Below are positions 22,674-38,900 of a stretch of DNA of 38,900 nt, in pieces; the stretch's first letter is position 1, and each line of letters begins with the position of its first letter. Position numbers and translations under genes: made by a program. Origin of the DNA: Planctomycetota bacterium (GTDB lineage: Bacteria > Planctomycetota > Phycisphaerae > Phycisphaerales > SM1A02); contig VGYQ01000020.1 of the NCBI GenBank assembly GCA_016872915.1, forward strand, positions 1 to 38,900. The letters run 5' to 3'. Below the pieces are notes generated by a model, which had not been told where the DNA came from, made no database searches, and worked only from the letters and a program-made list of their open reading frames with translations.

Positions 22674-22684
22674 AAGGCATTCCA

Positions 22685-24912: not shown

Positions 24913-24916
24913 ACCG

Positions 24917-26749
24917 ATGCGTCACCTCATGAACACTCCGAGCCTCTGGATCACGCAACTCATCGCGCTTGCCGTTCATGTGTGTGCGTTCGCCGGCGAT
25001 GTCGCATTTGATTTGTCGCCACTGCAAGGGTGGGCTGGTACGCCTGCGAGCCTCAAGATCACCGTGCGCGACGGCACCATGATTTCGGACCCGGTGCTTC
25101 CCACAGTCAACGGGCTTGATTTCGCACTCCAGCCCGGCCGACAAACCATGAACTCGATGCAGGTCATCAACGGCCGAGTGACCCGAGACAATACGACTGT
25201 CCTGAATGTTCTCGTGACGCCGCGGACCGCAGGCACATTCACTCTTCCACCCATCACGATCGAGGTCGATGGCGTGCAGCATTCATCAGGTCCGCTCAAG
25301 TTCTCCTCACTCAAGTCGGAAGCGGGCGACCTGCTGAAGGTGCAGGTCGTTACCGATCAGCCGACTCTCTGGGAGGGGCAGACCGTGAACGCGACACTTC
25401 GCATCGAAGTGAAACCCTACCAGTCACGCGAGCATCGTGTCACCCTTCGAGAGGGAGACATGTGGCAGTTCATCGATCTCGAGAAGTGCGAACTTGGCCC
25501 ATTTCAGCAGCGCATGCGAGAGTTGCTTCAGTCCAGTCAGCGTCCACAGGGTCGCGAAGCGCTCGTCGATGGGCAATCGATGTTGGTCTACGAGCTCACG
25601 GCACCACTCACGATGGGAGCGCCTGGTGTTCCGGATTATTCGGATGTGCGCATCGTCTGGAACTATCCCTCGCGCCTCAGCGCAAATCAAGATTTCTTCG
25701 GGCGCTCAGAGTTGAGTGTGTCAGCGACTCGCCCCATCACCGCGGATGCCGTTGCATCTGGCATTGAGGTGAAACCTCTGCCGCAAGATGGCAGACCATC
25801 TGATTTCGGTGGTGCGGTGGGTTCATTCTCCGTCGAAGCCACCGCAAAGCCCTTGGCCGTTGGCGTGGGCGATCCGATCACCTTGACCTACCGCATCACC
25901 GATCAAACGAGCCAAGGTCGGCTTGACTCGGTTGGTCCACCCCGGTTGGATGCACCGGCGCTCGCAGAGGACTTCCGCATGCCGACGGCACCGCTCGCCG
26001 GCTCGATCCAAGGCAACACCAAGACCTTCACGCAAACGCTGCGCCCAACCGCAGAATCCGTTCGAGAGATTCCTCCGATTGCATTCTCGTGGTTCGATCC
26101 AGAGAAAGGTCGTTACGAGACAGCAGCATCCAAGGCAATTGCACTCTCTGTGAGCGCGGTGGAACGCCTGACGACCGATGCGATCCTCGGCAACACCCGG
26201 GTGCCTGTCCAGAGTGCGCCCACCTTGGTTGCCACTGCGGGCGGACTTGGTGCAAACGTGGCCGTCACTCCCGCAATCATTCAAAGCCGACCCATTGGTG
26301 CAACGTCGTGGCTCCTCGCGGGCATGGCACTGCTCGTTCCGCCGGTGGCCTGCGCCGCTCTGCTGTTGGCGCGGCGCCGTCAAGATCGTCTTCTTGGAGA
26401 CCGCGGTTTGGCGCAAGAACAGAATGCTCGACAACGTGCGACGGCGCGCGCACGAACAGGTGCTGGTGCAGAGGCTGTCCAGAGCTATATCGCGGACCGC
26501 CTGCACCGCCCAAGCGGTACGGTGACGCGTGCAGAGGCAAGCCGATGCCTTCGCGCAGCAGGTGCGGATGATGCTCTTCAGCAGCAGGTCGAGGAGATTC
26601 TCAGCCGAGCTGAACGTGCACGCTTTGCGGCGCCAGGGACCGCACCAAGCGCGAGCCCAGACGATGCTGCGCGCGCAGTCTCCTGCATCGCATCTCTTGA
26701 TCGACTGAATTGGCGCGCAGCACGCGCGGGAATGGGAGGTGCCGAATGA
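24917..26749 (+). CDS. batD: BatD-type oxygen-tolerance protein
   Basis: 610 residues from the ATG at 24917 (Met5 at 24929 is an alternative). Signal peptide to about A-F-A. The BatD N-terminal module reads V-A-F-D-L-S-P-L-Q-G-W-A-G-T-P-A-S-L-K-I-T-V-R-D, with repeated Ig-like beta modules after it (F-T-L-P-P-I-T-I-E-V-D-G at ~110, V-G-D-P-I-T-L-T-Y-R at ~320). A TM helix lies near residue 480 (S-W-L-L-A-G-M-A-L-L-V-P-P-V-A-C-A-A-L-L-L) and a helical cytoplasmic tail follows. Mostly periplasmic and membrane-anchored. Likely scaffold of the Bat complex. Its TGA overlaps the batE ATG. Confidence 0.92.
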   Translation: MRHLMNTPSLWITQLIALAVHVCAFAGDVAFDLSPLQGWAGTPASLKITVRDGTMISDPVLPTVNGLDFALQPGRQTMNSMQVINGRVTRDNTTVLNVLVTPRTAGTFTLPPITIEVDGVQHSSGPLKFSSLKSEAGDLLKVQVVTDQPTLWEGQTVNATLRIEVKPYQSREHRVTLREGDMWQFIDLEKCELGPFQQRMRELLQSSQRPQGREALVDGQSMLVYELTAPLTMGAPGVPDYSDVRIVWNYPSRLSANQDFFGRSELSVSATRPITADAVASGIEVKPLPQDGRPSDFGGAVGSFSVEATAKPLAVGVGDPITLTYRITDQTSQGRLDSVGPPRLDAPALAEDFRMPTAPLAGSIQGNTKTFTQTLRPTAESVREIPPIAFSWFDPEKGRYETAASKAIALSVSAVERLTTDAILGNTRVPVQSAPTLVATAGGLGANVAVTPAIIQSRPIGATSWLLAGMALLVPPVACAALLLARRRQDRLLGDRGLAQEQNARQRATARARTGAGAEAVQSYIADRLHRPSGTVTRAEASRCLRAAGADDALQQQVEEILSRAERARFAAPGTAPSASPDDAARAVSCIASLDRLNWRAARAGMGGAE

Positions 26750-27630
26750 ACGCGCTTGCGACAGTCTGCCGTCTGGTGGCCATCATTCCCTGCATACTCT
26801 GCACAAGCGCACAGGCAGGCACCATCCCTCACATGGTGCAACGGACACAGGTCTCTGATCCCTATGCAGTCGCTCGGGAGGCACAGCAGAACTATGACGC
26901 GGGGATGGAGGCAGTAGCCACCGACCCGGAGCGCGCACACGCCCTGTTTTCCAAGTCCGCTGAGCTTTATCAGTTGCTTGCCGATATACCAATCGCGAAT
27001 GGCGAACTGAACTACAACCTTGGCAACGCTTGGATTCAGGCAGGCGATCCAGGTCAGGCCATCGCGGCGCTGCTCGACGCGCAACTGCTCCTGCCAGGCG
27101 ATGCACGCGTGGCGGCCAGTCTCGCCCATGCCCGTGCACTGGTTGAAGCAGGGACGTCCACAGCGGACAGCATTCCCCCGCTTGACCGAGCCGCCGCATG
27201 GTGGTCTTGGCTGTCGCCGTTGGCGCGGAGCATCACGGCGGCTGGCACGTGGACAGTCCTTTGGCTGGTGGTGGCGTGCGGCATCTGGACGCGATGGAAT
27301 CTCCGCTTACCGTGGCGTGCAGTCATCACCTCGCTTGCTGCCACTGCAGCGGTCGTCACCGGAACCTGCGTGGTAGATGCGGTGCGAACGACCCTCCATC
27401 CACCAGGAGTCATCACGAGCGAGACAGCGGTCGCACGCAAGGGCAACGGAGAGGGTTTCGCGCCTGCATTCTCTGAGCCGCTGAAGCGTGGCATGGAGTT
27501 CACACTCATTGAAGCGCGCCCGCAGTGGGTCCATGTCAGGCTTCGCGATGGGCAGTCGGCGTGGGTACGCAGCAGCGATGCGCATGTTGCAGGCGCCTGG
27601 GACACGGACCGAACCGCAAGCAGCCTCTAA
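26746..27630 (+). CDS. batE: BatE-type TPR + SH3 protein
   Basis: 294 residues from an ATG overlapping the batD stop (ATGA), with GGGAGG 6 nt upstream. Signal peptide (1-24, ending S-A-Q-A). TPR-like region (L-N-Y-N-L-G-N-A-W-I-Q-A-G-D-P-G-Q-A-I), then two TM helices around 165-185 and 195-215, then a bacterial SH3 domain (V-I-T-S-E-T-A-V-A-R-K-G ... W-V-H-V-R-L-R-D-G-Q-S-A-W-V). This domain order is characteristic of BatE. It is the last gene of the operon, and a GC hairpin follows 17 bp after the stop. Confidence 0.9.
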   Translation: MNALATVCRLVAIIPCILCTSAQAGTIPHMVQRTQVSDPYAVAREAQQNYDAGMEAVATDPERAHALFSKSAELYQLLADIPIANGELNYNLGNAWIQAGDPGQAIAALLDAQLLLPGDARVAASLAHARALVEAGTSTADSIPPLDRAAAWWSWLSPLARSITAAGTWTVLWLVVACGIWTRWNLRLPWRAVITSLAATAAVVTGTCVVDAVRTTLHPPGVITSETAVARKGNGEGFAPAFSEPLKRGMEFTLIEARPQWVHVRLRDGQSAWVRSSDAHVAGAWDTDRTASSL

Positions 27631-27822: not shown

Positions 27823-29364
27823 TCAGCCTCCAACATCATCCCAATTGGCAAGAAGCGCCGTGAGATCTGTTCCATTCACTGTGCCATCATTGTTGAAGTC
27901 TGCCGCTGGAAAGTTGCTCGCCCACGCTGCCAAGAGCGAACTGAGATCCATTCCATTGACCAGATTGTCCCCATTGACATCGCCGATGCGTCGTTCACAG
28001 ACCTCAGCCGTACCGTTGCCGTTCCCATCCGCACAGGTCGTGCCAGCCCCCTTCCATGACGCGCCGGCTGCTGCGGCATCTGCCTGCGAAAGAATCAAGC
28101 AGAATCCGTTGGTGAAGCAGGCTGCACCCTGAGGTGGCGGGCAGTTCTGCTGGGAACAGACGCTGTTGTTTCCGCGGTAGTTGCCCCCCTGCGCCGAACA
28201 TTGGGAAGGGCTCACAGGACCGACGCAGGAACCATCGGGCAAGCAGCATGCGCCCGTTGGGAAGCAGGTGTAGGTGCCACAGGCGCTTCCCTCCGGACCG
28301 GGGACACCACCAGCACCGACACAAGACTGATACGACAACGCGACACATCCACCCGTGGCTGCGAAACAGCACGCGTTGTTGCCTTGGGGCTGACAGATGG
28401 TGGACGTGCAGACCGAACCATCGCCGCGGTAAGACCCGCCCACAGACTGGCAGTTCGCCTGGGTGGAGAGCGAACAATTCGTGCCCACGCAGCACGCGCC
28501 TTGGCCAGGCGAGCACTGCAGCGGTGTATACGTCGCACGCATCACCCAGTCACCACTCGGACGGCACACACTCGGCAACTGTGCGAAAGTCTTCCAGCCG
28601 ACTCCACAACCGAACGATCCGCAATTGAGCAGGTACAGCCAGTTGCGCGTGGGTTGTGCAAGACCGCTGACATCGGTTGTCGGGAATGCATTGCTTGCAC
28701 TCGGCGGCGCCACAAAGCACGGGTTCTGCGTCTGATTGTTGTGATCATCAATGCGGTAGCCAATCGAGAATGTCTGCGTCCCGTTGTCATCGAGGTACAT
28801 CTGCTCCGGATCCTGCGGATCGATGAGAAACTGCACATTCACGCCACTCGTACCCGGGGGAAGAACAATGTGCGGAAGGATTTTGGCATCCGATGAGAAC
28901 ACATACTTGGGTGTTCCCGATGGATTCCCCTCCCAAACAAGTATGGACCACTTCGTTGTCGTCTGCACGGTTGCGCTGCTGGTGGCAAAGATGATCTCGG
29001 TCATGTCCAGTCGCATCGGAAACGCTGCGGCGGGAACAGTAAATGAGACAGCAGCGATCTCCTGCTCAGCGAATCCTGCTTGAACGATGTAAGACCCCCC
29101 CGTGAAACTCGCATCCGTGTGCGCCACCGTTTGTGATGGGCAGTTGCCTGCAAGCCCCCCTTCCGATTGTCCGCCACGCCGATAGATGGCCTGCATGGTC
29201 GGTATGTCTCGCGAAGCGGACCAGATCGGGAACAGGCGGCTCGATTCAACGTGCTGTTGCTCGCCCAAGACTTCTCGCGGCAAATCCGCGGCTGCGCGTG
29301 CGCTCTGCACACACCCAAAGGCAAGCGTGAAACACAAGGTCGTTGCAAAGGATCCGATTGTCAT
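27823..29364 (-). CDS. Secreted Cys-rich repeat protein with C-terminal EF-hand/dockerin-like pair
   Basis: 513 residues with a signal peptide (1-24, ending A-R-A). Residues ~25-280 form a beta-rich domain of no known family. Residues ~284-458 contain four Cys-rich repeats of about 40 residues (G-A-C-C-V-G-T-N-C, N-A-C-C-F-A-A, G-A-C-C-L-P-D-G-S-C, G-A-A-C-F-T-N-G), each with a G-x-Y-R-G-x-x-S-V-C-like second half in three of them. Two Ca-binding-like loops, D-V-N-G-D-N-L-V-N-G and D-F-N-N-D-G-T-V-N-G, close the protein. Such 'GACC' repeats are frequent in Phycisphaerae secreted proteins, and their role is unknown. The same EF-hand module occurs in the SUMF1 protein at 3352-4458. Confidence 0.85.
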   Translation of the reverse strand: MTIGSFATTLCFTLAFGCVQSARAAADLPREVLGEQQHVESSRLFPIWSASRDIPTMQAIYRRGGQSEGGLAGNCPSQTVAHTDASFTGGSYIVQAGFAEQEIAAVSFTVPAAAFPMRLDMTEIIFATSSATVQTTTKWSILVWEGNPSGTPKYVFSSDAKILPHIVLPPGTSGVNVQFLIDPQDPEQMYLDDNGTQTFSIGYRIDDHNNQTQNPCFVAPPSASNAFPTTDVSGLAQPTRNWLYLLNCGSFGCGVGWKTFAQLPSVCRPSGDWVMRATYTPLQCSPGQGACCVGTNCSLSTQANCQSVGGSYRGDGSVCTSTICQPQGNNACCFAATGGCVALSYQSCVGAGGVPGPEGSACGTYTCFPTGACCLPDGSCVGPVSPSQCSAQGGNYRGNNSVCSQQNCPPPQGAACFTNGFCLILSQADAAAAGASWKGAGTTCADGNGNGTAEVCERRIGDVNGDNLVNGMDLSSLLAAWASNFPAADFNNDGTVNGTDLTALLANWDDVGG

Positions 29365-29528: not shown

Positions 29529-29750
29529 TCACCGAGTTTCAGCGGGCAGGTTCGAACGCTCCCAGTCGATCGTGATCTTGTCCGTCGCGATCTCCTCGAT
29601 CGCGACCTCAAAGTCACTCCGACCGTTGCGTTCTACCAGCGGTCGAGCACCACCAATCAGCTCCGCGATGCGGCGTTGAATCAGCGCAGTGAACTTGAAC
29701 CGACCACCGACCTTGGTAATGATTTCGTCACTCTTGAGCGCGTCGTGCAT
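29529..29750 (-). CDS. rpoZ: RNA polymerase omega subunit
   Basis: 73 residues from the ATG at 29750 (MHDALKSDEII), with AGAGG 9 nt upstream. Family-specific sequence: K-V-G-G-R-F-K-F-T-A-L-I-Q-R-R-I-A-E-L-I-G-G-A-R-P-L-V, then E-V-A-I-E-E-I-A-T-D-K-I. Omega helps beta-prime fold and assemble into RNA polymerase and, in some bacteria, binds ppGpp. Divergent from rnpA, 61 bp apart, with a good intrinsic terminator downstream. Confidence 0.92.
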   Translation of the reverse strand: MHDALKSDEIITKVGGRFKFTALIQRRIAELIGGARPLVERNGRSDFEVAIEEIATDKITIDWERSNLPAETR

Positions 29751-29777
29751 GATGGGGTGCCTCTGGGGGAAGCCCAA

Positions 29778-29807
29778 TAGAATAGCGGAAGAAACAGCAA
29801 CAGGCAA
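29778..29807. promoter_or_regulatory. Shared divergent promoter region of rpoZ and rnpA
   Basis: Minus strand toward rpoZ: TTGCCT (29807-29802), 17-bp spacer, TATTCT (29784-29779). Plus strand toward rnpA: TAGAAT at 29778-29783 matches a -10 in five of six bases, without a clear -35. The two -10 boxes overlap, so use of one promoter could exclude the other. Confidence 0.4.
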
Positions 29808-29811
29808 GCCG

Positions 29812-30171
29812 ATGCCCGAGCCACGAAGATCTTTCACGCGTTCCATGCGAATCACGAGCGGAACGGACTTTCAGCGGGTTTACTCCCGCCGTGTCCGCAA
29901 GGATTTGGGCTGGATCGTGCTGCATGCGGATTTGAACGGCCGTGCTTGGACACGGCTCGGACTTTCGGTTGGAGCCCGTGTGGGTGGTGCAGTCCAGCGC
30001 AACCGCATCAAGCGCCTGACACGAGAAGCCTTTCGCACGTTGCACGCACGACTGCCGAGCGGCATGGATTTGGTGATCTCAGCTCGACTGCCGCAGGAGC
30101 GCCCACTTGGTGACTACATCACAGCACTCGAAACAGAAGTACCGCGGCTCGCGCGCGTTCTCCTGCGGTGA
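29812..30171 (+). CDS. rnpA: Ribonuclease P protein component
   Basis: 119 residues from the ATG at 29812 (MPEPRRSFTRS). Met12 at 29845 is an alternative. RnpA signatures: F-Q-R-V-Y-S-R-R-V-R, L-G-L-S-V-G-A-R-V-G-G-A-V, and the RNA-contact motif Q-R-N-R-I-K-R-L-T-R-E-A-F-R. It binds the RNase P RNA and aids 5' maturation of tRNAs. The usual upstream partner rpmH (ribosomal protein L34) is absent here; rpoZ diverges instead. It converges with yidD, leaving 2 bp between stops. Confidence 0.95.
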   Translation: MPEPRRSFTRSMRITSGTDFQRVYSRRVRKDLGWIVLHADLNGRAWTRLGLSVGARVGGAVQRNRIKRLTREAFRTLHARLPSGMDLVISARLPQERPLGDYITALETEVPRLARVLLR

Positions 30172-30173
30172 GA

Positions 30174-30404
30174 TCACTCGCAACAGCGCTTCTCAGGGAC
30201 TGGGTCATCGCCGCATCCGCCCCAAGGGTGACAGCGTGCAAGTCGACGAAGGGTGAGCCACCCTCCACGCCACGCACCATGCCGTTCGAGCGCTTCCACC
30301 GCGAACACCGAGCAGGATGGATGAAATCGACAGCGCCCCCCAAAGATCGGCGACAGCAGCCACTGGTAGAGGCGAACCCCTTGCACGCAGCAGCGTGCAG
30401 CCAT
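30174..30404 (-). CDS. yidD: YidD membrane protein insertion efficiency factor
   Basis: 76 residues from the ATG at 30404 (an upstream start would overlap the FAH gene). YidD signature: G-V-R-L-Y-Q-W-L-L-S-P-I-F-G-G-R-C-R-F-H-P-S-C-S-V-F-A-V-E-A-L, then R-L-A-R-C-H-P-W-G-G-C-G-D-D-P-V-P. A peripheral inner-membrane protein that assists YidC/Sec insertion. The gene sits 19 bp after the FAH gene at the end of the long SPFH/ABC array and faces rnpA tail to tail, unlike the usual rpmH-rnpA-yidD order on one strand. Confidence 0.92.
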   Translation of the reverse strand: MAARCCVQGVRLYQWLLSPIFGGRCRFHPSCSVFAVEALERHGAWRGGWLTLRRLARCHPWGGCGDDPVPEKRCCE

Positions 30405-30423
30405 CGATGGGGACCCACGCAAG

Positions 30424-31086
30424 TCAGTCTTCCTCAACCACTGGATTGCGAAGCACACCCACCCGCTCAATGCGGATCTCGACCACATCGCCTTGCTTGA
30501 GATAGCGCGGTGGCTTCCGTGCGTGCCCAACGCCGGATGGTGATCCCGTGAGGATCACCGTTCCCGAGAGCAGGGTCATGCCACGCGACAGATCGGCGAT
30601 GAGCCGTGCCACAGGAAAGATCATCGACTCAGTCGATGCGTCTTGCATGCACTCGCCACTGACGAAGGTCTGGATTCGGAGTGCTTGCGGATCCGAAACT
30701 GCCGCAGCCGGCACAGCTGCCGACAACGGACAGAATGTGTCAAAGCTCTTGCCACGGCTGAATTGACCCCCCGCTCCCTCATTTTGCCACCAGCGCGCAC
30801 TCACATCATTCGCCACCGCGTAGCCCCTCACGCAACCAAGCGCACGCTCGAGCGGGATATCGCGGCAATCACATCCGAGGATGACCGCGAGTTCGCCCTC
30901 GTAGTCCACCTGCGGTCCACCCTCACGGCAAATCGCAGGAATCACGATCGGTTCTTCATTTCCAATGACCGCCGCTGGATTCTTGAAGAACACCATCGGT
31001 CGCTGTGGAACGGCATTGCCGAGTTCCTTTGCATGATCACCGTAGTTGCGACCAATGGCGATGATTGCCGGCGGGCGTGGTATCAC
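30424..31086 (-). CDS. Fumarylacetoacetate hydrolase (FAH) family protein
   Basis: 220 residues, a compact FAH domain typical of FAHD1-type enzymes. Signatures: G-R-N-Y-G-D-H-A-K-E, F-F-K-N-P-A-A-V-I-G, metal-binding D-Y-E-G-E-L-A-V (Glu63 and Glu65) and Asp94 in A-N-D-V-S-A-R, then L-L-S-G-T-V-I-L-T-G-S-P-S-G-V-G. Members are Mg-dependent acylpyruvate hydrolases, oxaloacetate decarboxylases or isomerases, and the substrate here is undecided. Its ATG overlaps the stop of the 651-aa gene (ATGA, 31083-31086). yidD follows by 19 bp. Confidence 0.93.
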   Translation of the reverse strand: MIPRPPAIIAIGRNYGDHAKELGNAVPQRPMVFFKNPAAVIGNEEPIVIPAICREGGPQVDYEGELAVILGCDCRDIPLERALGCVRGYAVANDVSARWWQNEGAGGQFSRGKSFDTFCPLSAAVPAAAVSDPQALRIQTFVSGECMQDASTESMIFPVARLIADLSRGMTLLSGTVILTGSPSGVGHARKPPRYLKQGDVVEIRIERVGVLRNPVVEED

Positions 31087-33038
31087 CGCGACTCCGCCTT
31101 TGAGCGTCTGCTGGTCTCCTCTGCTTCACGCCGTCGCGCCTCCTCCGCGGCGACAGCAAGGCGATGTTCTTCCATGCCTGGCGGCTCGGGAAGCACCTGC
31201 GCAAACGGAACCATCTGGGAGACCGGATCGAGGCTGTACTCCACCTCCATCGGTCCGCGCACGAGGTCGTACACCATCCGTCGCTCCGCCTCGCCTGCAC
31301 GGTTGTAGATCGTCAGACGGTCCATGAGCGGTTGCGATGGATCCACGAGTACGTTTGCGAAGACATCACGAATACTCGTGCGCAAGTCGCCAATGAGCGC
31401 AGCCATTCGCCGCTCACCAAACTTGTTCACAAAGTCGGCAATCTGGCTGCTTTGGAAGTAGTCCGTCAAGTCACGTGCAAACTTGAGGGCCTCTTCGAGA
31501 ACCTTCGGGCGATCAAGCAGCAATCCCTCTCGGAATCCACGCTGCAGCGCGGCATACACATCGCTTCGAGCGACATCGGGAGCCAGCCCATACTCGCCGT
31601 AGGTCGTATTCCGGACAAAGACTTCGAGCGGCGCTTCATATTTGTTGTTTGGAACGAGGCCACCGCGGCCAAACAGGTTGTCCAACTTGACCAGGATCTC
31701 CTGCGCACCCTCCATGTCCCCGAACCGATACAACTCGCGTACCGCTTGGGTCATGTAGTTCTGATAGAAGTCGCAGAAGGTGTCGCCACCGCCACCGCGT
31801 GTTCCGTAATGCTTGCGGTACAGATCACCGAAGTAGCGGTCGATCGCCTTGATCCAGCGTGGGTCGTTCAAACGTGACGGGTTATCGCTGCTGAAAACGT
31901 CATAGCCCATGAGTCCAGTACGGGCCAGCGCCTGCATCGCCTGAATATTGACTCGGTCATTGTTGAGAACCTTGTAGATGTCATCGGGCGCCTCGCTGCG
32001 CTTTGCCGCAGTGGTTGTTCCCTTGTGCGACCAGTAAAAGGCGTGGCTTTGTGGGTGACGCCAATCGAAGGGACCGAAGTCTCGCGTGTACTGCCACATC
32101 AAAGCCGGATCCATATTCAGCGATTCCAGCAGCACCTTGCGCCGCAGGAATGGAAGGAACTTTGCAAGGGCCTCACGCGACTCTGGCTTCGACAGCACGG
32201 TATCGAGCGCGAGATAGACCGGATCGTTGCGCTTGAATGTTGCCTCAAGCCCAAGCAATTTCGCGTAACGGCTTGATTGGACGGCCTCCCAGCGACCCAG
32301 ATTCATCAGAAAGTCCTTGTCGAGTCTGAACTGAAAACGGGCATCAAAGCCGGCCAAGTTGGATCGAAGCTCTTCCAGCAACTGCTTCACGCCCGGCTCA
32401 CGGACTTCGAGTTCATCGATCGTGTGCGGGGCATCCTTGATTGTGGCAATCCACTGAATCCGATCCGCAAAGGAAAGCGGTGGGACACCCAGCAGCAGTT
32501 GCCATTCGCGCGCAAACTCTCGTTTGTAGTAGAGGTGCGCATCGTCGGCGACACCATCGAGCTTGTGCGCCATCATGAAGGCCAGTTCCTTGTGCAGGAT
32601 CAAATCGTTCGGGTTGTAACGGAGGCCCTCGTCACGGATGAGATTGAATCCAGCTCGCACCCATTCCCACCGCTCCTGCGGCGTGTCTGTCATGACCGAA
32701 ATGTTGTAAGTCATGTTGTGGCCATGAAACCCCCAGACATCGCCGAACCTCGGCTGCAGCTTGGTGATCAGTGCCGCATCTGCCATCGCCTCGAAGAAGA
32801 GCCCCTTCTCCTTCATGATGTTGGTCTTGATCCACAGATAGTCAACGATCAGTCCACGCAGCGCACCGATCGCCGTGCCGATTGCCACGATCGGCGGCGC
32901 ACCCTCCACGGAGACGTCCGTGTAGCGGAGACTCTTCTCATCACTGATGCGCAGGATCTCTGGTAAGAGGCGCGATCCACCGAGCAGTGCCACGCCTGCG
33001 ATCACCACGCATGCCAGTTGCATCAACCGATCGCGCAC
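31083..33038 (-). CDS. Membrane-anchored protein of unknown family in SPFH/ABC operon
   Basis: 651 residues from a GTG at 33038, chosen because GAGGG is 5 nt upstream and it follows the permease stop by one base. One N-terminal TM helix (about residues 6-25, L-A-C-V-V-I-A-G-V-A-L-L-G-G), then a large, mostly helical soluble part with many aromatic residues: G-F-H-G-H-N-M-T-Y-N-I-S-V, E-R-W-E-W-V-R-A-G-F. TPR-like organisation is possible but not proved. The C-terminal ~40 residues are charged (E/R/K), likely coiled or disordered. I recognise no domain. Its tight coupling to the exporter permease and FAH gene suggests an accessory subunit, probably periplasmic. Confidence 0.85.
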   Translation of the reverse strand: MRDRLMQLACVVIAGVALLGGSRLLPEILRISDEKSLRYTDVSVEGAPPIVAIGTAIGALRGLIVDYLWIKTNIMKEKGLFFEAMADAALITKLQPRFGDVWGFHGHNMTYNISVMTDTPQERWEWVRAGFNLIRDEGLRYNPNDLILHKELAFMMAHKLDGVADDAHLYYKREFAREWQLLLGVPPLSFADRIQWIATIKDAPHTIDELEVREPGVKQLLEELRSNLAGFDARFQFRLDKDFLMNLGRWEAVQSSRYAKLLGLEATFKRNDPVYLALDTVLSKPESREALAKFLPFLRRKVLLESLNMDPALMWQYTRDFGPFDWRHPQSHAFYWSHKGTTTAAKRSEAPDDIYKVLNNDRVNIQAMQALARTGLMGYDVFSSDNPSRLNDPRWIKAIDRYFGDLYRKHYGTRGGGGDTFCDFYQNYMTQAVRELYRFGDMEGAQEILVKLDNLFGRGGLVPNNKYEAPLEVFVRNTTYGEYGLAPDVARSDVYAALQRGFREGLLLDRPKVLEEALKFARDLTDYFQSSQIADFVNKFGERRMAALIGDLRTSIRDVFANVLVDPSQPLMDRLTIYNRAGEAERRMVYDLVRGPMEVEYSLDPVSQMVPFAQVLPEPPGMEEHRLAVAAEEARRREAEETSRRSKAESR

Positions 33039-33039
33039 T

Positions 33040-35076
33040 TCAGCCCTCGCCTCCGCTGTAGATCGCAATCTCCTTGCGTGAGAACGCCCATCCGCCGATC
33101 GCAAACGCCAGCGCGCTCCACAAAAGTCCGATCAACCCCAACGCACGCACCACAGACCCCCACGGGATCACGCGCCCATCGACCAGGTCGGTCGAACTTC
33201 CGACGGATGCGAATGGAGCCAACAACCATTGGACGCTGCCCACAAACCCCCGAATGAACATCTCGAAAACCTGCATGAACCACGGGGCGTCGGTCGGCAC
33301 CGCGTACTGCTCGACCGCTACCTCCAAAAAAGGCGACATGGACCCGACGATAAACACCGTCATCGCAACGAGCACAGCAACCGGGAAGGAGAGAATTCCA
33401 GCCGCGCTGATCCCAAGCGCGGCAATGAACAGCAGCTTTCCCCAGTCGACCAGCATCGCACGCAGGAAGTTGCCCTCGAAGTTGCCGACGCGGTGCAGTA
33501 CCTCAAGTCCATCGGCGTCGAAGTTCATCGACCATGGTGCCTGCATGATGCGCCCACCCTCCATCATGGCCCCGTTCACAATGGTGACACGCAGCGTGCC
33601 ATCCTCGGCAATCGCCTCCACGGGGATACCGATGACATTCCGCTGTACCGGGACATAGTCAACGAGCACAGGCGGCAAGTCACCGAACAGGAACGAGACG
33701 GGGTAAACCTCGTGCGAACTGTCGGGCCCGCTATGAAAGGTGTATCGCAGCATCGGTGTGATACCTGCCTTTCGAGCCTCAAGCAGTCCCGAGAACGAAT
33801 AACTCCGCGACGCTCCAGCCGCGATGGTGCGCTGGGCCGTCGAGAACTCCGTGACCTTCTGAACACGAAGTTGGCGAACCACATCGGCCTCTGACTTTGC
33901 GCCCGCCTCGATTTCGCCGCGAAGCACAGAATCGTTTTCGATCTCCCGATTGACGGAATCCCGAAGCTCGATTGGATCAATGCTCTTGTACGCGGGACGC
34001 TCCGTCGCGCGGGCAACCAGTACCTGATTGTTCAGCGCCGCTGCGTCTTCCACGCTCCCCGCTGGCCGCGCACTGATGAGGGATACCTGGACAAGCACCG
34101 CCATGCCGGCCACGGACAGGATCAGTCCGTTCAACACCGCGAGTCCAAGCCACTTTCCTGCGAGGTACTGCAGTCGCGAGACGGGCTTCGTCAGCACGCT
34201 CCAGATCTGTCGATCACGGATTTCAAATGCCACAGTGGCACATGCGAGCAACAGCGTAAGAAATGCGGCGACAAGAAAGACGAGTCCACTCCCGCGCGCA
34301 ATGAATGTCTGCACTTGGTAGCGCAGCGGATCCTGACTGGAGATGAACAACGGCAACAGTGGCAGCAGGACCAAGAGCCCCGCGATGCACGCCACAGAAA
34401 TCTTCTGTCGGGTCGCTTCGAGCAGGAGCGTGTGCGCAATACCCGTGATGGCGCCCGCAGGCGACAGCATGCGAAGCGCCAACTGTGTCGCCACAAGGAA
34501 TAGAAAGAGCAAGACTCCAATGCCTGTAAAAGCAACAAACAACTGCATCTGTCCAAGAACAAAGCAGGCAGTCGCGAGAGGTGCCGTCACAAGCGTGATG
34601 CCGACCAGCGAAAGCGAGAGTCCCAGCCAAATCGCCATGACTGCAAGGCACGCAATGCCGATGCCAATCCCTCCAACCAACATCGGCTGCTCCACCACTT
34701 GCGGTGGTGCCCATCGCGGCGCTTGCGTTGCTGCAATGAAGGAAGCAAACACAGGAATCTCATCGACCGTTCCACTCTCGTTGAACATCCCAAGGGCCAC
34801 GGCTTGGACGCGTGCGCCTCCCACTTCACGACCGTTCAGTTGCACGAGGCCGCGGTCCACCAAGTTGACCGCTTGCTGATTGCGTTCCTGAATGTTCGCC
34901 TCTCGTAGAACGCCGACGATCTCGCCAACGAGTTGGGCATGTTGCAGCGAGGACCACCACAGCGGCACAACGGCGCCGCTCACCAGCAGCACGGCCAGCG
35001 CACTCAGCAGCATGCGGCTGCCGACCCGCTCCTGCCAAACGCCGAAGCGTTCCAACGCACTCCCGATCCATTTCAC
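33040..35076 (-). CDS. ABC-2-type transporter permease with large extracytoplasmic insert
   Basis: 678 residues from a GTG overlapping the ATPase stop (GTGA, 35073-35076). One TM helix near the N terminus, a group of six or seven between about 140 and 340, and a second group after residue 540. The segment R-D-R-Q-I-W-S-V-L-T-K-P-V-S-R-L-Q-Y-L-A-G-K is a common cytoplasmic coupling motif of ABC-2/NosY-like permeases. About 190 residues (345-535) between the TM groups form a hydrophilic, beta-rich domain (Y-T-F-H-S-G-P-D-S-S-H-E-V-Y-P-V), unusually large. Probably works with the upstream ATPase, and the cargo is unknown. Confidence 0.88.
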   Translation of the reverse strand: MKWIGSALERFGVWQERVGSRMLLSALAVLLVSGAVVPLWWSSLQHAQLVGEIVGVLREANIQERNQQAVNLVDRGLVQLNGREVGGARVQAVALGMFNESGTVDEIPVFASFIAATQAPRWAPPQVVEQPMLVGGIGIGIACLAVMAIWLGLSLSLVGITLVTAPLATACFVLGQMQLFVAFTGIGVLLFLFLVATQLALRMLSPAGAITGIAHTLLLEATRQKISVACIAGLLVLLPLLPLFISSQDPLRYQVQTFIARGSGLVFLVAAFLTLLLACATVAFEIRDRQIWSVLTKPVSRLQYLAGKWLGLAVLNGLILSVAGMAVLVQVSLISARPAGSVEDAAALNNQVLVARATERPAYKSIDPIELRDSVNREIENDSVLRGEIEAGAKSEADVVRQLRVQKVTEFSTAQRTIAAGASRSYSFSGLLEARKAGITPMLRYTFHSGPDSSHEVYPVSFLFGDLPPVLVDYVPVQRNVIGIPVEAIAEDGTLRVTIVNGAMMEGGRIMQAPWSMNFDADGLEVLHRVGNFEGNFLRAMLVDWGKLLFIAALGISAAGILSFPVAVLVAMTVFIVGSMSPFLEVAVEQYAVPTDAPWFMQVFEMFIRGFVGSVQWLLAPFASVGSSTDLVDGRVIPWGSVVRALGLIGLLWSALAFAIGGWAFSRKEIAIYSGGEG

Positions 35077-36299
35077 GTCGACCGCTCTCCCGACCCACCC
35101 GACGAGTTGTCCTGCTGCTGCTTTCGACTGTCCCCGAGCAGTCCTTCAATCACGGAGTTGTCCACTGCATCAGACTTCGGCTTGGTGACATCGGAGCCCG
35201 CAGGCTTTGGGGCGGCTGTTCCACTGGGCCGCTGCAACTCCGCAATGGCATCTAACTCTGGCCCCCTTCCCATGGGAGTCGATGCGGCGACCTGTACTGC
35301 TCGCTTTGACTCCGTGGCCGCACGCTCGAGATCAGCAATGAGTGCTCCAGCCTGCTGCCCCTCACCCTCACCCAAGAATGCTGCCGTCGGACCGCCACGC
35401 ATGGCGCCACTTGTTTCAGCCTGTTCGGCACGCGCTGCGTCCACGATCTGCAAAAAGAGATCCTCGAGTCGCTGCCGCGGCGACTCCACACGGTCGACCG
35501 CAACACCAACCTCACGCCGAATGGCAGCGTCGATCTTCGAGATCGCGGTCGCATCCAAGCGGGGCAGATGCAGTGTGGTGTGTTTCGTATCGCGAAGAAG
35601 CTCTTCCGCACTGCCGGACGCGCGAATCTTCCCACCATACAAAATGACCATGCGGTCGCAGACATCTTCCACATCGGCAAGCAAGTGCGACGACAGCAGC
35701 ACTGTCTTGCCCCTGCGTCGCAGGTCAAGCAGGAGATCCTTGACCTGCCGCGTCCCGATCGGGTCGAGTCCCGAGGTGGGTTCATCGAGAATCAGAAACT
35801 CAGGATCATTGATGAGCGCCTGTGCGATGCCGAGGCGGCGCGCCATTCCCTTGGAAAACTCCCCAACAACGCGGTGCGAGGCCCCCTCGAGCCCAACCAT
35901 CTCGAGCAGCTCATCCGTTCGACGACGACGGGTTGAACGAGGTAGTCCGAACAGTTTGCCAAAATATTCGAGCGTCTCCCTCGGATTGAGGAAGCGATAC
36001 ATATAGGTTTCCTCTGGCAGATAGCCGATTCGCGACTTGACGGATACGTCGGAGGGATCGCGTCCAAACACGCTCAACCGTCCCTTGGACTTCCGAAGAA
36101 GCCCGAGAATCATCTTGATCGTGGTGCTCTTGCCCGATCCGTTGGGACCGAGCAGACCAAAGATCTCATGTGGGCGAATCTCGAAGGTCACCCCGTCGAC
36201 GGCCCGCGCCTTCGCACGCAGCCAGAAATCCGAAAATGTCTTGACCAATCCTTCCGCTTCCACAACCGTCTGAACACTTGCCGCCTCGCGTCGATTCAT
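35073..36299 (-). CDS. ABC transporter ATP-binding protein with long disordered tail
   Basis: 408 residues from the ATG at 36299. Walker A G-P-N-G-S-G-K-S-T is at about residues 53-61, Q-loop region L-P-E-E-T-Y-M-Y, signature F-S-K-G-M-A-R-R, Walker B L-I-L-D-E-P-T-S-G-L-D-P, and H-loop S-S-H-L. It fits the ABC-2 exporter (CcmA/NatA-like) class. Beyond the ~300-residue nucleotide-binding part is a ~110-residue tail rich in Ala, Gln, Ser and Gly (ending S-S-G-G-S-G-E-R-S-T), a non-standard extension. It overlaps the permease start by GTGA and follows the SPFH gene by 13 bp. It energises the exporter at the inner membrane. Confidence 0.93.
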   Translation of the reverse strand: MNRREAASVQTVVEAEGLVKTFSDFWLRAKARAVDGVTFEIRPHEIFGLLGPNGSGKSTTIKMILGLLRKSKGRLSVFGRDPSDVSVKSRIGYLPEETYMYRFLNPRETLEYFGKLFGLPRSTRRRRTDELLEMVGLEGASHRVVGEFSKGMARRLGIAQALINDPEFLILDEPTSGLDPIGTRQVKDLLLDLRRRGKTVLLSSHLLADVEDVCDRMVILYGGKIRASGSAEELLRDTKHTTLHLPRLDATAISKIDAAIRREVGVAVDRVESPRQRLEDLFLQIVDAARAEQAETSGAMRGGPTAAFLGEGEGQQAGALIADLERAATESKRAVQVAASTPMGRGPELDAIAELQRPSGTAAPKPAGSDVTKPKSDAVDNSVIEGLLGDSRKQQQDNSSGGSGERST

Positions 36300-36312
36300 G
36301 CCCAGTTCCCCC

Positions 36313-37740
36313 TCAGTCCTTGCCGAACGTTTTGGTTCCCGACTTGTCGAGTCGCCGCCCTGGCCCATCCGGAGTGATCAGCCGAGAGCCAAGTTGGAAC
36401 GAGGGAGCGTCTGACCCGATGGCGGCAGCCGCCGCCTTCTTCCGTTCCAGCTCAGCGTCGCGCCTTGTCTGCATCGTGTCGGGTGAACTGCGAACTCGCA
36501 GAACATAGCGTCCGAGATTGTCGGGCACCGAGAACACTTCAACCTCGTCGCGGTTGACGACCTGCCGAACTGCATCCAACCAGAGCTGCTGAATCAGCTG
36601 CCGGGGGTTTTCTCGGAAGCTCGCCGCCAAACTCCCGACACGCCGCGCTTCCTGTGCAAGCGCAGCCGTCACCGACGACTGCTTCGAACGCGCCTGAGCG
36701 ATGATGCGTGACGCTTCGCCACCAATATCGGGTTGCTCGAAGCGCTGACCGATGCGCCGAAGAAGCGCGTCGGAGGCAGACACATCGCCTTTCGTGAGCA
36801 GCATCTCGTACTCGTGAATCATGTCGAGCACCTCACCAAACCGCGGGCCGGCTACACCGACCAACTTTGTGTTGGCGTCCTGGCGCGCGAGCTCCACATT
36901 TGTCTTCATTTCTTCGCGGGCCGTCTGGACTCGGCGAAGCGCACCTCGAACTGCAAATGGAGCAGTCCGCTCGAGAATGGTGACCGACACCACTTCGATA
37001 CCCGCACCCATGCTGCGAAGCGTCTCCTGCATCCGCTGACGGATCGCGAGTGCAGGCAGTTCCCGCTGCTCCAAGAACTCCGGCAGCGTCAATTCGGCAA
37101 CGGTTGAAACCGCAGCACGCCGCAGCACGGCGCGCATCAATTCCGCCGCGCGCTCGGGATCCATCAGCCGAAGCATGGCAACCGGATCAACCACGGTCCA
37201 CTCTGCCGAGAACTGCGCATGCGCAAGATCGCCATCAGCTGTCAGCAGCGAACCATCACGCCCCGGCCGAATGGGCTCGTCGGCACTTGCCGAATCCGTT
37301 GCAGCTTCGAGGGTCACATCCTTCAGAGCACGCTGCGGCCAGAAGGACTCCCGTACCTCAAAGGTCTGTCGTTGCGACAGCGTGACAAACTCGCCGATCG
37401 GCGTTGGCCAAAACGGTTGAAGTCCAGGCGTCACGACCTGACTGTCGCCCTCACCCACAACGCGGCCAAAGACGGTGCGAATTCCGGTGACTCCTTCGGG
37501 CACCGATTGGAAACCAGAAAACAGGAAAGTCACCACAAGACCGGCAATCGCGATCTGAAGAACTCGGTACGACAGCCGAAGCGCCTCGCCGAGACTCTGA
37601 TTGGCAGGGTCCATCGCCGCACGAAGGCTGGCGCGTTCACTCACAACATCCGACACCTGCAGTGTGGCGCGCTTCCTTGCGCGATGTGCGCGGTTCGCCT
37701 CTTCTGGCGATTCGGGCTCGTCGATGGGTTGGTCCGCCAT
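36313..37740 (-). CDS. Third, divergent HflK-like SPFH (band 7) protein
   Basis: 475 residues from the ATG at 37740, with AAGGAG 10 nt upstream. A ~57-residue acidic/basic cytoplasmic N-terminus, a TM helix at about 58-77, then an SPFH domain: V-P-E-G-V-T-G-I-R-T-V-F-G-R-V, V-T-P-G-L-Q-P-F-W-P-T-P-I-G, A-E-L-M-R-A-V-L-R-R-A-A-V-S-T-V-A-E-L-T-L. After it comes a long helical (coiled-coil-prone) region E-E-M-K-T-N-V-E-L-A-R-Q-D-A-N and a C-terminal extension of about 150 residues not typical for HflK. SPFH proteins form membrane microdomains or cage-like rings around partner proteins such as FtsH. Its stop is 13 bp before the ABC ATPase gene, linking it to the exporter. Confidence 0.85.
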   Translation of the reverse strand: MADQPIDEPESPEEANRAHRARKRATLQVSDVVSERASLRAAMDPANQSLGEALRLSYRVLQIAIAGLVVTFLFSGFQSVPEGVTGIRTVFGRVVGEGDSQVVTPGLQPFWPTPIGEFVTLSQRQTFEVRESFWPQRALKDVTLEAATDSASADEPIRPGRDGSLLTADGDLAHAQFSAEWTVVDPVAMLRLMDPERAAELMRAVLRRAAVSTVAELTLPEFLEQRELPALAIRQRMQETLRSMGAGIEVVSVTILERTAPFAVRGALRRVQTAREEMKTNVELARQDANTKLVGVAGPRFGEVLDMIHEYEMLLTKGDVSASDALLRRIGQRFEQPDIGGEASRIIAQARSKQSSVTAALAQEARRVGSLAASFRENPRQLIQQLWLDAVRQVVNRDEVEVFSVPDNLGRYVLRVRSSPDTMQTRRDAELERKKAAAAAIGSDAPSFQLGSRLITPDGPGRRLDKSGTKTFGKD

Positions 37741-37741
37741 G

Positions 37742-38683
37742 TCAGGGCTGCTCCTTGCCCTTCGGTTGTGCAAGGTAGGGTTCGCGCGGCTGCGGAATGC
37801 CTGCCGTGCTTCCTGCCTCGTTCAAATCAAGGAGATGGAAAGGCGCTCGATTGAGGTCGGTCACGAAGGTGGTGCTTCCCGACAACGAGCCCTTGAGCGT
37901 GTCCAGCCAAGCCAGAAAAATCGCAAGGTCTGCTTCCTGCTTCATGAGCTGGTAGTAGCGAGTGGATTCTTCATTGCCAAGCGCCTCGATTTCGGCTGCC
38001 CACTGTGCAGCGAAGTTGCGGATCGTGTCCGCCGAACTCGCGGCTTGGCTCTTGATGGCCTCGGCTTCCGAGTTCCCCTTCGACTCCTCCAGATTGGCCA
38101 AGGTCTCCTGAACTGCAGCCATGCGCCGAAGAACTGCCACAGAGGTCTTCGGCGGCAGAACGACCTGCGAAATACCGACGCTGACCGGCTCAATACCCGG
38201 CAAGCGAGTGGCCTTCATGTCGGCGAGAATCGATGCTTCCGCTTCTCCAATTCGACTGGACTGACCGATGAGTTCGGCAAATGTGTACCCACCAACCGCG
38301 CGCACCGCACCCTGCAGCTGTACTCCCAACTCCTTGCCCGCAGTATCGAGCGTCCCATGCGAAACGAAGAATTGCAGCGGTGCATCACCTGTTTCCTGCA
38401 CACGCCACAGGAGATAAGCCTGCACAAGCACCTGCTGGCCATCCTTGGTCAGAACGGTCTCGAGAGGGCTCTCGATGAATTGCAGGCGGACATCAAGCTT
38501 GGTCACCTGATCGATGAAGAGCGGCGCCTTCAGGTGGAGACCTGCCGAGCGTTCCACACCTGCCGGTTTCCCAAAGCGGGTCAAAACGGCAATCTCGTGG
38601 AAGTTCACCGTGTAGGTGGTACTAAAAAGCACAAGGACTGCGACAATCACGACTGCAACAACGACTGGAATCTTTCGCATCAT
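37742..38683 (-). CDS. hflC: HflC-type SPFH protein
   Basis: 313 residues with a TM helix at about 6-24 (V-V-V-A-V-V-I-V-A-V-L-V-L-F). The SPFH domain follows: N-F-H-E-I-A-V-L-T-R-F-G-K-P, G-L-H-L-K-A-P-L-F-I-D-Q-V, then helical A-D-M-K-A-T-R-L-P-G-I-E-P-V-S-V-G-I and S-K-G-N-S-E-A-E-A-I-K-S-Q-A-A-S-S-A-D. In E. coli HflKC encloses the FtsH protease and limits its access to substrates. The start overlaps the HflK-like stop (ATGA, 38680-38683), and the third SPFH gene starts 1 bp after the stop. The C-terminal ~40 residues are Pro-rich and variable. Confidence 0.88.
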   Translation of the reverse strand: MMRKIPVVVAVVIVAVLVLFSTTYTVNFHEIAVLTRFGKPAGVERSAGLHLKAPLFIDQVTKLDVRLQFIESPLETVLTKDGQQVLVQAYLLWRVQETGDAPLQFFVSHGTLDTAGKELGVQLQGAVRAVGGYTFAELIGQSSRIGEAEASILADMKATRLPGIEPVSVGISQVVLPPKTSVAVLRRMAAVQETLANLEESKGNSEAEAIKSQAASSADTIRNFAAQWAAEIEALGNEESTRYYQLMKQEADLAIFLAWLDTLKGSLSGSTTFVTDLNRAPFHLLDLNEAGSTAGIPQPREPYLAQPKGKEQP

Positions 38684-38900
38684 TTGTCTTGCTTCTCCAG
38701 ATAATCACCAAGGTTGAGCCCTGACTCTGGCTGCTCCATCTGCACATCGATATCCACACGGGTGGGATCCACGGCAAGCACGTACTTCACTCGAGCCTCC
38801 GACAGTGCACGCGTCAGGACTGCCATGATCGCTCGCTCTCGATAAAGGGCCGGTGCCGCGCGGTACGAGGGTGCTTGGCCGAGCACCTCACTCGCCGTGG
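38680..38900 (-). CDS. hflK: HflK-type SPFH protein, C-terminal end only
   Basis: The frame runs in from the right window edge, and about 72 C-terminal residues are visible. P-S-Y-R-A-A-P-A-L-Y-R-E-R-A-I-M-A-V-L-T-R-A-L-S-E-A-R matches the HflK C-terminal segment (Y-K-A-A-P-E-V-T-R-E-R-L-Y-x-E-T-M in E. coli). Its TGA overlaps the hflC ATG. Therefore it is the upstream gene of the SPFH/ABC array; its start lies outside the window. Confidence 0.8.
   Translation of the reverse strand, partial: TASEVLGQAPSYRAAPALYRERAIMAVLTRALSEARVKYVLAVDPTRVDIDVQMEQPESGLNLGDYLEKQDK

Follow-up and report, generated by a model that had tools for sequence, protein, structure and literature searches.

An SPFH Cassette Joined to an ABC-2-Type Transporter Module, with a Displaced P-Type ATPase, in a Family of Planctomycetota

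The window (the whole stretch of planctomycete DNA analysed here, 38,900 nucleotides) ends with an SPFH cassette of three paralogues, namely a polytopic HflK-like, an HflC-like, and an HflK-like third protein (SPFH3), which is denoted M1. It is joined to an ABC ATPase, an ABC-2-type permease, and a 651-aa protein (U651), denoted M2. M2 is a module separable from the cassette, and the trio is an old cassette that is present also on Pseudomonadota plasmids and is usually followed by a P1B-type ATPase. Gene content, gene order, conservation, tree grouping, and motif loss were observed directly; on these grounds we regard it as an evenly poised possibility that an SPFH ring formerly devoted to a metal pump here serves the ABC-2 transporter.

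Results

The gene content, order, strand, and junctions given in a previous sequence-only reading were reproduced, and its array of three SPFH genes, ABC ATPase, ABC-2 permease, 651-aa protein, FAH-family enzyme, and YidD was confirmed by coordinates and Pfam matches. All eight genes lie on the minus strand. The array begins with the C-terminal end (72 aa) of the HflK-like gene (38680–38898), which runs off the end of the contig; this contig (G000:C20) is the window in full, so that HflK is not readable beyond 38898. The HflC-like gene (37742–38683; Band_7, 1.2e-20) overlaps this end by 4 bp and is separated by 1 bp from SPFH3 (36313–37740, alternative start possible at 37773; Band_7, 6.7e-19). 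A 13-bp gap leads to the ABC ATPase (35073–36299, alternative start possible at 36368; ABC_tran, PF00005, 2.1e-30, 106.5 bits), which shares a GTGA overlap with the 678-aa permease (33040–35076; ABC2_membrane_2, 9.7e-6, below the cut-off). U651 (31083–33038; 673 aa if counted from 33104) follows after 1 bp and has an N-terminal hydrophobic anchor. The FAH gene (30424–31086; FAA_hydrolase, 1.7e-67) is joined to U651 by another GTGA overlap, and YidD (2.5e-26), lying within the ORF 30174–30530, is convergent with rnpA (29689–30171, plus strand). The order HflK-HflC-SPFH3-ATPase-permease-U651 recurs in all 18 loci of the window's family that reach HflK (20 stretches of approximately 20 kb were fetched, two of them too short), which exceeds chance and indicates that the grouping is real. 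The HflK-HflC-SPFH trio has this order in the window as well, and the full HflK was confirmed in a locus of the same genus (L247), where, at the position at which the window's contig ends, the HflK-like ORF is complete and is accompanied by a second, divergent permease.

FAH and YidD were not borne out as members of the array. They are syntenic neighbours with strand flips: of the 20 family loci, 11 have FAH running in the same direction as U651, 5 have it convergent, and in 4 the two genes do not adjoin; the FAH profile had no match in 60 fetched loci, all outside the window's family. Both were rejected as module parts on account of local synteny, and specificity of FAH to the window was rejected because this synteny is family-wide.

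The HflK-like ORFs of relatives span about 570–830 aa with 5–7 hydrophobic segments, the final one directly preceding the SPFH domain (hydropathy of four relatives), and the window's HflC and SPFH3 each have one N-terminal hydrophobic segment. These two window proteins exceeded the Pfam cut-off of Band_7, and the 72-aa HflK end matched no Pfam family. The window HflC scored 92.3 bits against TIGR01932 (cut-off 134.4) and SPFH3 60.4 bits against TIGR01933 (cut-off 159.4); in a relative (L093), HflC was narrowly over its NCBIfam cut-off (135.0), with HflK (75.4) and SPFH3 (126.3) under theirs. A quick SPFH tree, which contains several long rows and leaves out the window's HflK end, gave three separate groups (SH-aLRT 97 for HflC, 96 for SPFH3, and 93 for long HflK). 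Each mixes joined planctomycete, M1-only, and Pseudomonadota plasmid copies, with L211 labelled M1-only although it has an ABC ATPase. The window's HflC and SPFH3 fall within the cassette HflC (97) and SPFH3 (96) clades, respectively.

HflK and HflC of E. coli cage FtsH, forming a large membrane-anchored ring or dome. The trio could be the plain HflK/HflC of this genome, caging and tuning FtsH, with the ABC adjacency an inherited order without shared function. The SPFH domain and the neighbouring hflK and hflC genes are common to both systems, the closest solved relatives of the window HflC are E. coli-type HflC chains, and in the SPFH tree the sister groups of cassette HflC and of SPFH3 are canonical HflC and canonical HflK, respectively. 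FtsH is present in the window's genome, and a Band_7 search of that genome found only two places, both in the window, so that no other HflKC was seen in the 90.6% complete assembly. We nevertheless consider this explanation unlikely, since the window holds three paralogues, the HflK of relatives carries an extra polytopic domain, and the window's HflC and SPFH3 and the long HflK of a relative miss the equivalog cut-offs. They also group apart from the canonical proteins, the HflK/HflC of E. coli and Persicobacter falling outside all three cassette groups. In addition, FtsH lies on another contig (G000:C67), a genome of the same class (G142) has the cassette plus a separate short HflK-like match, and the trio's neighbour is a P-type ATPase in most loci read. 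The NfeD-linked SPFH operons (SPFH1, 2, and 5; PMC2636767) resemble the cassette in that an SPFH gene shares its operon with a conserved partner, but no NfeD occurs among the window's module genes, and the text of that paper contains neither "abc" nor "p-type" (0 occurrences each).

The M2 transporter resembles the DrrA/GldA-type ABC-2 exporters. The best NCBIfam matches of its ATPase are drrA and GldA, and its permease is weakly ABC-2-like (25.5 bits against ABC2_membrane_2, cut-off 27.2; 30.1 bits for the permease of relative L074), with a hydrophilic stretch of approximately 200 aa between hydrophobic segments as judged from hydropathy. Permease homologues adjoin the ABC ATPase across the phylum. 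The transporter differs from the Gld system in scoring well below its models (186.5 against 402.6 for the window ATPase with GldA; 23.5 against 288.5 for GldF with a relative's permease) and from DrrA/GldA-type exporters in falling short of their model cut-offs and in the addition of U651 and, in these lineages, of a second ABC-2 permease. U651 was found in 142 of the 199 sampled genomes of the phylum and in 58 of the 61 genomes of the window's family, and has a conserved N-terminal domain with the consensus LQPRFxxVWxFxAWNMAYNIS. The sequence-only reading could not assign this protein, and profile searches likewise found no known family, there being no match in Pfam, NCBIfam, or PADLOC; none of its PDB matches was convincing (best E 0.48). 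It is membrane-anchored and probably faces the periplasm. A defence role was rejected, as none of the six proteins given to PADLOC matched.

Outside the phylum, the searches for M1 and M2 covered plasmids, and the M2 triad was found on plasmids of Candidatus Manganitrophus. Around M2 loci that lack SPFH genes, 75 of 94 flanking ORFs were scanned; H+-pyrophosphatase (9) was the sole neighbour family in more than 2 of these 75 proteins, and no metal transporter was present among the 25 families listed of 93.

The cassette and the ABC genes are joined in many lineages, with a second ABC-2 permease (PERM2) beyond HflK. The proposed SPFH-ABC-U651 linkage is real and recurs in many families; what did not stand is the exporter as the defining partner of the trio, as the P-type ATPase described below lies near it in 101 of 108 loci. 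In the 199 phylum genomes, 26 of 57 long-HflK loci lie within 15 kb of a U651 match, among the matches listed. Of the 108 loci that have HflC and SPFH3, 85 contain ABC-module genes in the same stretch; U651 was used to pick most of these loci, which inflates the figure, and the former count is less biased. No ABC-module gene adjoins the trio in any of the five Pseudomonadota plasmid loci read. The SPFH and ABC/U651 genes, whose separation the sequence-only reading had counted against its own proposal, are unlinked in part of the phylum, and on the tree of ABC ATPases the "with SPFH" state requires 8 changes. When every locus absent from the M1-only and plasmid lists is counted as joined, PERM2 sits beside HflK in 75 of the 85 such loci with room for it, a class that takes in loci with no M2 gene in the fetched stretch both with PERM2 (L212, L213, L220, and L233) and without it (L206, L210, L214, L230, and L231). 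The corresponding counts are 1 of 15 for M1-only and 0 of 5 for plasmid loci. Among the 23 loci that carry the ATPase, permease, and U651 but no SPFH genes, PERM2 was seen in just 5 (L049, L050, L064, L065, and L071), so M2 does not always include it.

Of the 108 HflC and SPFH3 loci (L188 being left out of this count), 92 have a P-type ATPase as the module gene that follows SPFH3 and 8 have one upstream; that of L047, seen in a wider stretch, brings the total near the trio to 101. The 7 exceptions comprise the window, L032–L036 (five loci from its order), and one cut contig (L233). In the window, SPFH3 abuts the ABC ATPase, and the 20-kb family stretches contain no P-type ATPase, including beyond HflK in the 18 informative loci. 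Loss of the pump from the window's genome was ruled out, as a copy belonging to the cassette clade sits on contig C10, and 58 of 61 family genomes (own included, some matches partial) have one with at least 65% identity to it. In a quick tree, the linked copies, the displaced copies (from the window's genome and four genomes of f2, a family of its order), and L215 formed a clade with support of 99, outside of which fell 11 other P-type ATPases including ZntA and CopA. The joined-type copies, displaced copies, and L215 grouped with support of 98. The placement of the displaced copies rests on this quick tree, the relevant forks being below 80 in a careful one. The displacement is not order-wide: f3 genomes G077 and G198 and f4 genome G111 have a copy 62–68% like the f3 query, which, where read, is beside PERM2 and has CPC, and G185 (f4) has no close copy.

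The motifs of the pump differ between these groups. CPC with the TM8 His was present in 73 of 85 joined-type copies, a count in which L066 (reading CPL) was mis-scored and in which L213, L220, L229, and L230 are taken as joined-type with no ABC-module gene in the stretch, as are the first three in the P-type ATPase trees. It was present in 9 of 12 M1-only and 5 of 5 plasmid copies; the P2-type ATPases L077 and L085 were excluded from this count and the quick tree and included in the 90 P-ATPase loci. The copy of the window's own genome reads CPG and has Gln at the TM8 His position. CPC was absent from all 30 best-scoring family copies (CPG in 24, APG in 4, and TPG in 2), in which the catalytic motifs are retained; in this family survey the TM8 context of L285 was a false regex match and was not used. 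VPA replaced CPC in 4 of 4 f2 order-mates.

These data bear on the version of the sequence-only reading in which the SPFH proteins evolved here specifically to scaffold the ABC exporter, unconnected then or now with any metal pump. The tight junctions, the constant order across all 18 informative family loci, and the lack of a P-type ATPase in those stretches agree with it. We give it only a small chance of being right, since the pump adjoins the trio so widely elsewhere and the window genome's own copy lies within the cassette clade of the quick tree.

A counterpart of the cassette with its pump is the hmtA locus of P. aeruginosa (PA2434–PA2439), in which PA2439 is HflK, PA2438 HflC, PA2437 an HflC-family protein, and PA2435 a P-type ATPase, according to the accessible parts of PMC4542158 and PMC8531726. 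HmtA is reported to be a Zn/Cu importer. Compared through these published gene lists, the locus is like M1 in having three SPFH genes, HflK first, and a P-type ATPase; it differs from the window in that the ABC-2 transporter and U651 are not reported in those parts of the papers, and from the window's family in that its pump is within the locus, the family's being non-adjacent and without CPC. An operon of three SPFH genes in strain PA14, named PaFlo5-7 (PMC13086221, in part), is probably the same trio. As to the claim that no such system had been described, the literature search found no description of the whole SPFH-ABC-U651 composition; the part consisting of three SPFH genes and a P-type ATPase is matched in content by the described hmtA locus.

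The trio and its partners may alternatively form one metal unit: a P-type ATPase with a changed site that moves a metal, an ABC-2 transporter and U651 that transport or insert a metal-related cargo, and SPFH proteins that keep these components together. As far as the accessible text of each source goes, SPFH transcripts of the hmtA locus are more abundant in a znuA mutant depleted of zinc (PMC4542158), their proteins rise on zinc depletion with significance only in part (PMC11761036), the promoter of PA2439, with which the locus begins, is shifted by Zur (PMC8531726), and Caulobacter has a Zur-controlled ABC-2-type system, znuGHI (PMC4176598). The P. sprentiae plasmid cassette also lies some kilobases from zinc-uptake genes. 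We find this reading quite improbable in view of the replaced CPC in the family and f2 copies, the lack of a metal transporter among the families listed around SPFH-less M2, and hmtA mRNA that is constantly low, without repression by zinc (PMC8531726, in part). Furthermore, Zur-like boxes showed no excess upstream of HflK in 105 loci with approximate ORF starts, the upstream region of the window lying beyond its contig.

Discussion

SPFH proteins are credited with organising membranes, and to our knowledge few of their client transporters are known. We favour, with middling confidence, the composite module over the above alternatives. The window would then represent most of a membrane module composed of M1 and M2, with PERM2 beyond the contig end. 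The three SPFH proteins may assemble, like HflK/HflC, as a large ring or dome anchored in the membrane. In M1-only bacteria this structure would enclose or organise the metal pump; in those with M1 joined to M2 it would additionally gather the ABC-2 transporter, presumably an exporter. Since the pump gene is non-adjacent and its usual metal ligands are lost in the window's family and f2, the trio would there most likely serve the ABC transporter, possibly still with an altered pump in trans. A more specific version, which we offer tentatively and as well short of an even bet, is that the SPFH cage swapped partners in this one planctomycete family, from a P1B pump to an ABC-2 transporter with a TPR-like anchor, while the old pump, without its metal sites, moves a non-soft-metal cargo or has another job.

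The module offers two candidate SPFH client transporters with comparative evidence, one of which, the P-type ATPase, seems to have drawn little comment in the literature. The family with a non-adjacent, ligand-less pump provides a natural experiment on the role of an SPFH cage for its transporter, and U651, a large unannotated family, gains a transporter context. The analysis also draws attention to P1B-type ATPases whose metal sites are eroded and which the curated model TIGR01525 still names heavy-metal pumps (510.7 bits, cut-off 346.25).

Gene Array and the U651 Protein

The window is a complete contig of a 2.09-Mb assembly that is 90.6% complete. ORFs and profiles placed an HflK-like end, an HflC-like gene, a third SPFH gene (SPFH3), an ABC ATPase, an ABC-2-type permease, a 651-aa protein (U651), an FAH enzyme and YidD on its minus strand, from 38898 down to 30174, confirming the gene content, shared strand and junctions of the sequence-only reading. 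U651, which that reading could not assign, indeed matched no family in Pfam, NCBIfam or PADLOC, and a comparison with the PDB gave no convincing relative. A single clear N-terminal hydrophobic segment behind a basic N-terminus suggests a position outside the membrane; hydropathy marked a second, weaker segment at 69–90, and the orientation would be reversed if this segment spans the membrane. U651 was present in 142 of 199 genomes sampled across the phylum and in 58/61 genomes of the window's family.

FAH and YidD had been counted as array members, which was not borne out. Among 61 loci picked by U651 (the window's own and 60 fetched), their profiles matched only in the own locus. Within the family, FAH was present in 54/61 genomes and adjoined U651 in 16 of 20 loci, co-directionally in 11 and convergently in 5. 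Both were therefore rejected as module parts and regarded as neighbours, with FAH varying in strand. The region 29529–30530 contains an Rpb6/omega-type gene (minus), rnpA (plus) and yidD (minus), the last two convergent. A Bat-like set on the plus strand (21576–27630) encodes a pair of VWA proteins, one TPR and one BatD-like protein, and a weak SH3-match protein, and a Cys-rich protein (27823–29364) has a dockerin domain at its C-terminal end.

Two Separable Modules

The proposed SPFH–ABC linkage held in part: the genes are joined in many loci and form separate modules elsewhere in the phylum. Starting from long HflK (57 loci, 55 genomes), 26 loci lay at most 15 kb from U651 among the U651 matches listed; for the others, U651 was far away on the same contig (2), on other contigs (23) or not listed (6). 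Since several contig breaks fall within the module, linkage may be hidden in part of the 23. Of the 61 U651-picked loci, 51 contained ATPase homologues, 54 a homologue of either permease and 26 SPFH genes; 23 of the fetched ones carried ABC ATPase, permease and U651 without SPFH genes. Plasmids of Candidatus Manganitrophus (Nitrospirota) carry a similar triad, with a U651-like protein; in loci L190 (4744–7756) and L191 it has PilM-type genes nearby, and the permease of L191 is annotated in pieces. Homologues of U651 without ABC-module genes in the fetched stretch were seen in L053, L054 (where a large TPR protein adjoins), L061, L063, L070 and L076. In nine loci without SPFH genes, from five families (L072, L074, L077, L079, L081 and L084–L087), an H+-translocating pyrophosphatase ORF stood directly behind U651, the stop-to-stop ORFs overlapping by up to about 60 bp or lying up to 90 bp apart.

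The usual fourth gene of the SPFH module is a P1B-type ATPase. Profile search detected P-type ATPases in 90/141 loci, including L077 and L085, which are P2-type and unrelated. In the 108 loci with HflC and SPFH3, pooled from all sources, the P-type ATPase directly followed SPFH3 among the module genes in 92 and was upstream in 8; the remaining 8 were L047 (its ATPase found by a wider fetch), L233 (contig cut), the window and L032–L036, which belong to the window's own order. Of these 108 loci, 85 had ABC-module genes within the stretch, a number inflated because 80 contig-search and 60 phylum loci were selected by U651. Relatives' ORFs were read stop to stop, so their lengths are upper bounds. 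The trio and P-type ATPase without ABC-module genes ("cassette-only") were found in several planctomycete families (e.g., L195, L196, L197, L198, L202, L204 and L208), the list also including loci that end at a contig edge or close to it (L201, L203, L207, L209 and L213). Outside the phylum, plasmids were searched, and the four-gene cassette stood alone in Paraburkholderia, Rhizobium (two), Klebsiella and Burkholderia (5 loci read out of 10 records found).

A second ABC-2 permease was often upstream of HflK in the profile reading of the 141 loci. Among the 85 loci with room for it outside the cassette-only and plasmid lists, some of which show no ABC-module gene in the stretch, 75 had it beside HflK, as compared with 1/15 cassette-only and 0/5 plasmid loci. 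Where SPFH genes were absent, it adjoined the ABC ATPase in L049, L050, L064 and L065 and followed U651 in L071; no second permease was found in the remaining 18 of these 23 SPFH-free loci. By this distribution, it goes with the ABC genes, not the cassette, where the two are joined, without being a fixed part of the ABC module.

An SPFH-domain tree (69 rows, quick method, excluding the window's truncated HflK) separated HflC, SPFH3 and long HflK into three groups, each on one branch side (SH-aLRT 97, 96 and 93) and each holding planctomycete joined, cassette-only and plasmid copies, with E. coli and Persicobacter HflK/HflC outside. Canonical HflC was next to cassette HflC, and canonical HflK next to SPFH3. 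Placing SPFH presence on the tree of ABC ATPases took 8 changes, where shuffled labels needed 22 on average; the trait is clustered, with repeated loss or gain.

Displacement of the P-Type ATPase and Loss of Its Usual Metal Ligands

The CPx and TM8 positions are metal ligands, the TM8 site being Asp in ZntA and Met in CopA. Linked joined-type ATPases, a label that takes in L213, L220 and L229 (plus L230 in TM8 scoring) as stretches without an ABC-module gene, had CPC in 74/84, CPS in 4, CPT in 3, CPG in 2 and CPL in 1; cassette-only copies had CPC in 11/12 and CPG in 1, and plasmid copies CPC in 5/5. CPC together with a TM8 His occurred in 73/85 joined-type, 9/12 cassette-only (three not scored) and 5/5 plasmid copies; the remaining 12 joined-type copies comprised seven CPS or CPT with His, two CPG with Tyr and three not scored. 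The second Cys has also been lost from cassette ATPases of several other planctomycete families (CPS in L213, L229, L232 and L211; CPT in L056, L062 and L234; CPG in L051, L058 and L195; CPL in L066).

The window genome's own ATPase, on another contig (C10), has CPG and a TM8 Gln, and the heavy-metal ATPase model TIGR01525 still recognises it at 510.7 bits, above the cut-off of 346.25. Those of four order-mates in family f2 have VPA and Gln, and gpsA adjoins the gene in the window's genome and the order-mates. Matches of at least 65% identity to the own copy, some partial, were obtained in 58/61 family genomes, own included; G212 and G222 gave weak matches, and G244 none among the 61 searched. 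The best 30 family copies had CPG (24), APG (4) or TPG (2), Q or Y at TM8 in 29 (L285 being a false regex match), and the catalytic motifs DKTGT, TGE and HP in all 30. P1B-type ATPases with altered CPC and, where scored, no TM8 His were read in L267–L296, L177 (6504–8654) and L216–L219. The gene lies about 27–48 kb from U651 on the same contig in 12 family genomes (G203: partial match), far from it in single-contig G207 and G230, and on another contig elsewhere. Displacement is a feature of the window's family and f2, not of the whole order: G077 and G198 (family f3) and G111 (f4) keep a close ATPase beside the second permease, with CPC in those read there (G077 and G111), and no close copy was found in G185 (f4).

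A quick ATPase tree (68 rows) set one clade (99) against 11 outside rows, among them ZntA and CopA of E. coli. The clade held every linked copy, the unlinked L215 and the displaced copies from four f2 genomes and from that of the window. Cassette-only and plasmid copies grouped at 99, and joined-type, displaced and L215 copies at 98 (94 without the displaced). A careful tree gave 100/99 for cassette-only plus plasmid copies and for plasmid copies; its forks placing the displaced copies had support under 80, and this placement rests on the quick tree.

Comparison with the hmtA Locus and Possible Client of the Trio

By published gene lists, the P. aeruginosa hmtA locus resembles the cassette in gene content and order. 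The sources describe PA2434, PA2435 and PA2437–PA2439 transcripts as raised in a zinc-depleted znuA mutant (PMC4542158), locus proteins as raised on zinc depletion, significantly only in part (PMC11761036), the PA2439 promoter as shifted by Zur and hmtA mRNA as constantly low without zinc repression (PMC8531726), and HmtA as a Zn/Cu importer (PMC8456098, citing Lewinson 2009). The PA14 three-SPFH operon PaFlo5-7, probably the same trio, is described in PMC13086221 as dispensable for growth, its deletion slightly reducing biofilm and weakening virulence in wax moth. Zur-like boxes showed no excess upstream of HflK in 105 loci (ORF starts approximate).

Because the cassette resembles this locus, the SPFH proteins would assemble around a metal pump, and in part of Planctomycetota an ABC-2 transporter may later have joined this assembly. 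As the pump has left the cassette and lost its site while trio and ABC genes are still coupled, the ABC transporter is the likeliest present client of the trio in the window's family. The trio may have a role in FtsH control, since no SPFH genes other than the window's were found in the 90.6% complete assembly. In Paraburkholderia sprentiae (L186, 1–15420), the surroundings of the SPFH–ATPase cassette include zigA and genes encoding a GTP-binding protein, a zinc ABC importer and a PCu(A)C chaperone.
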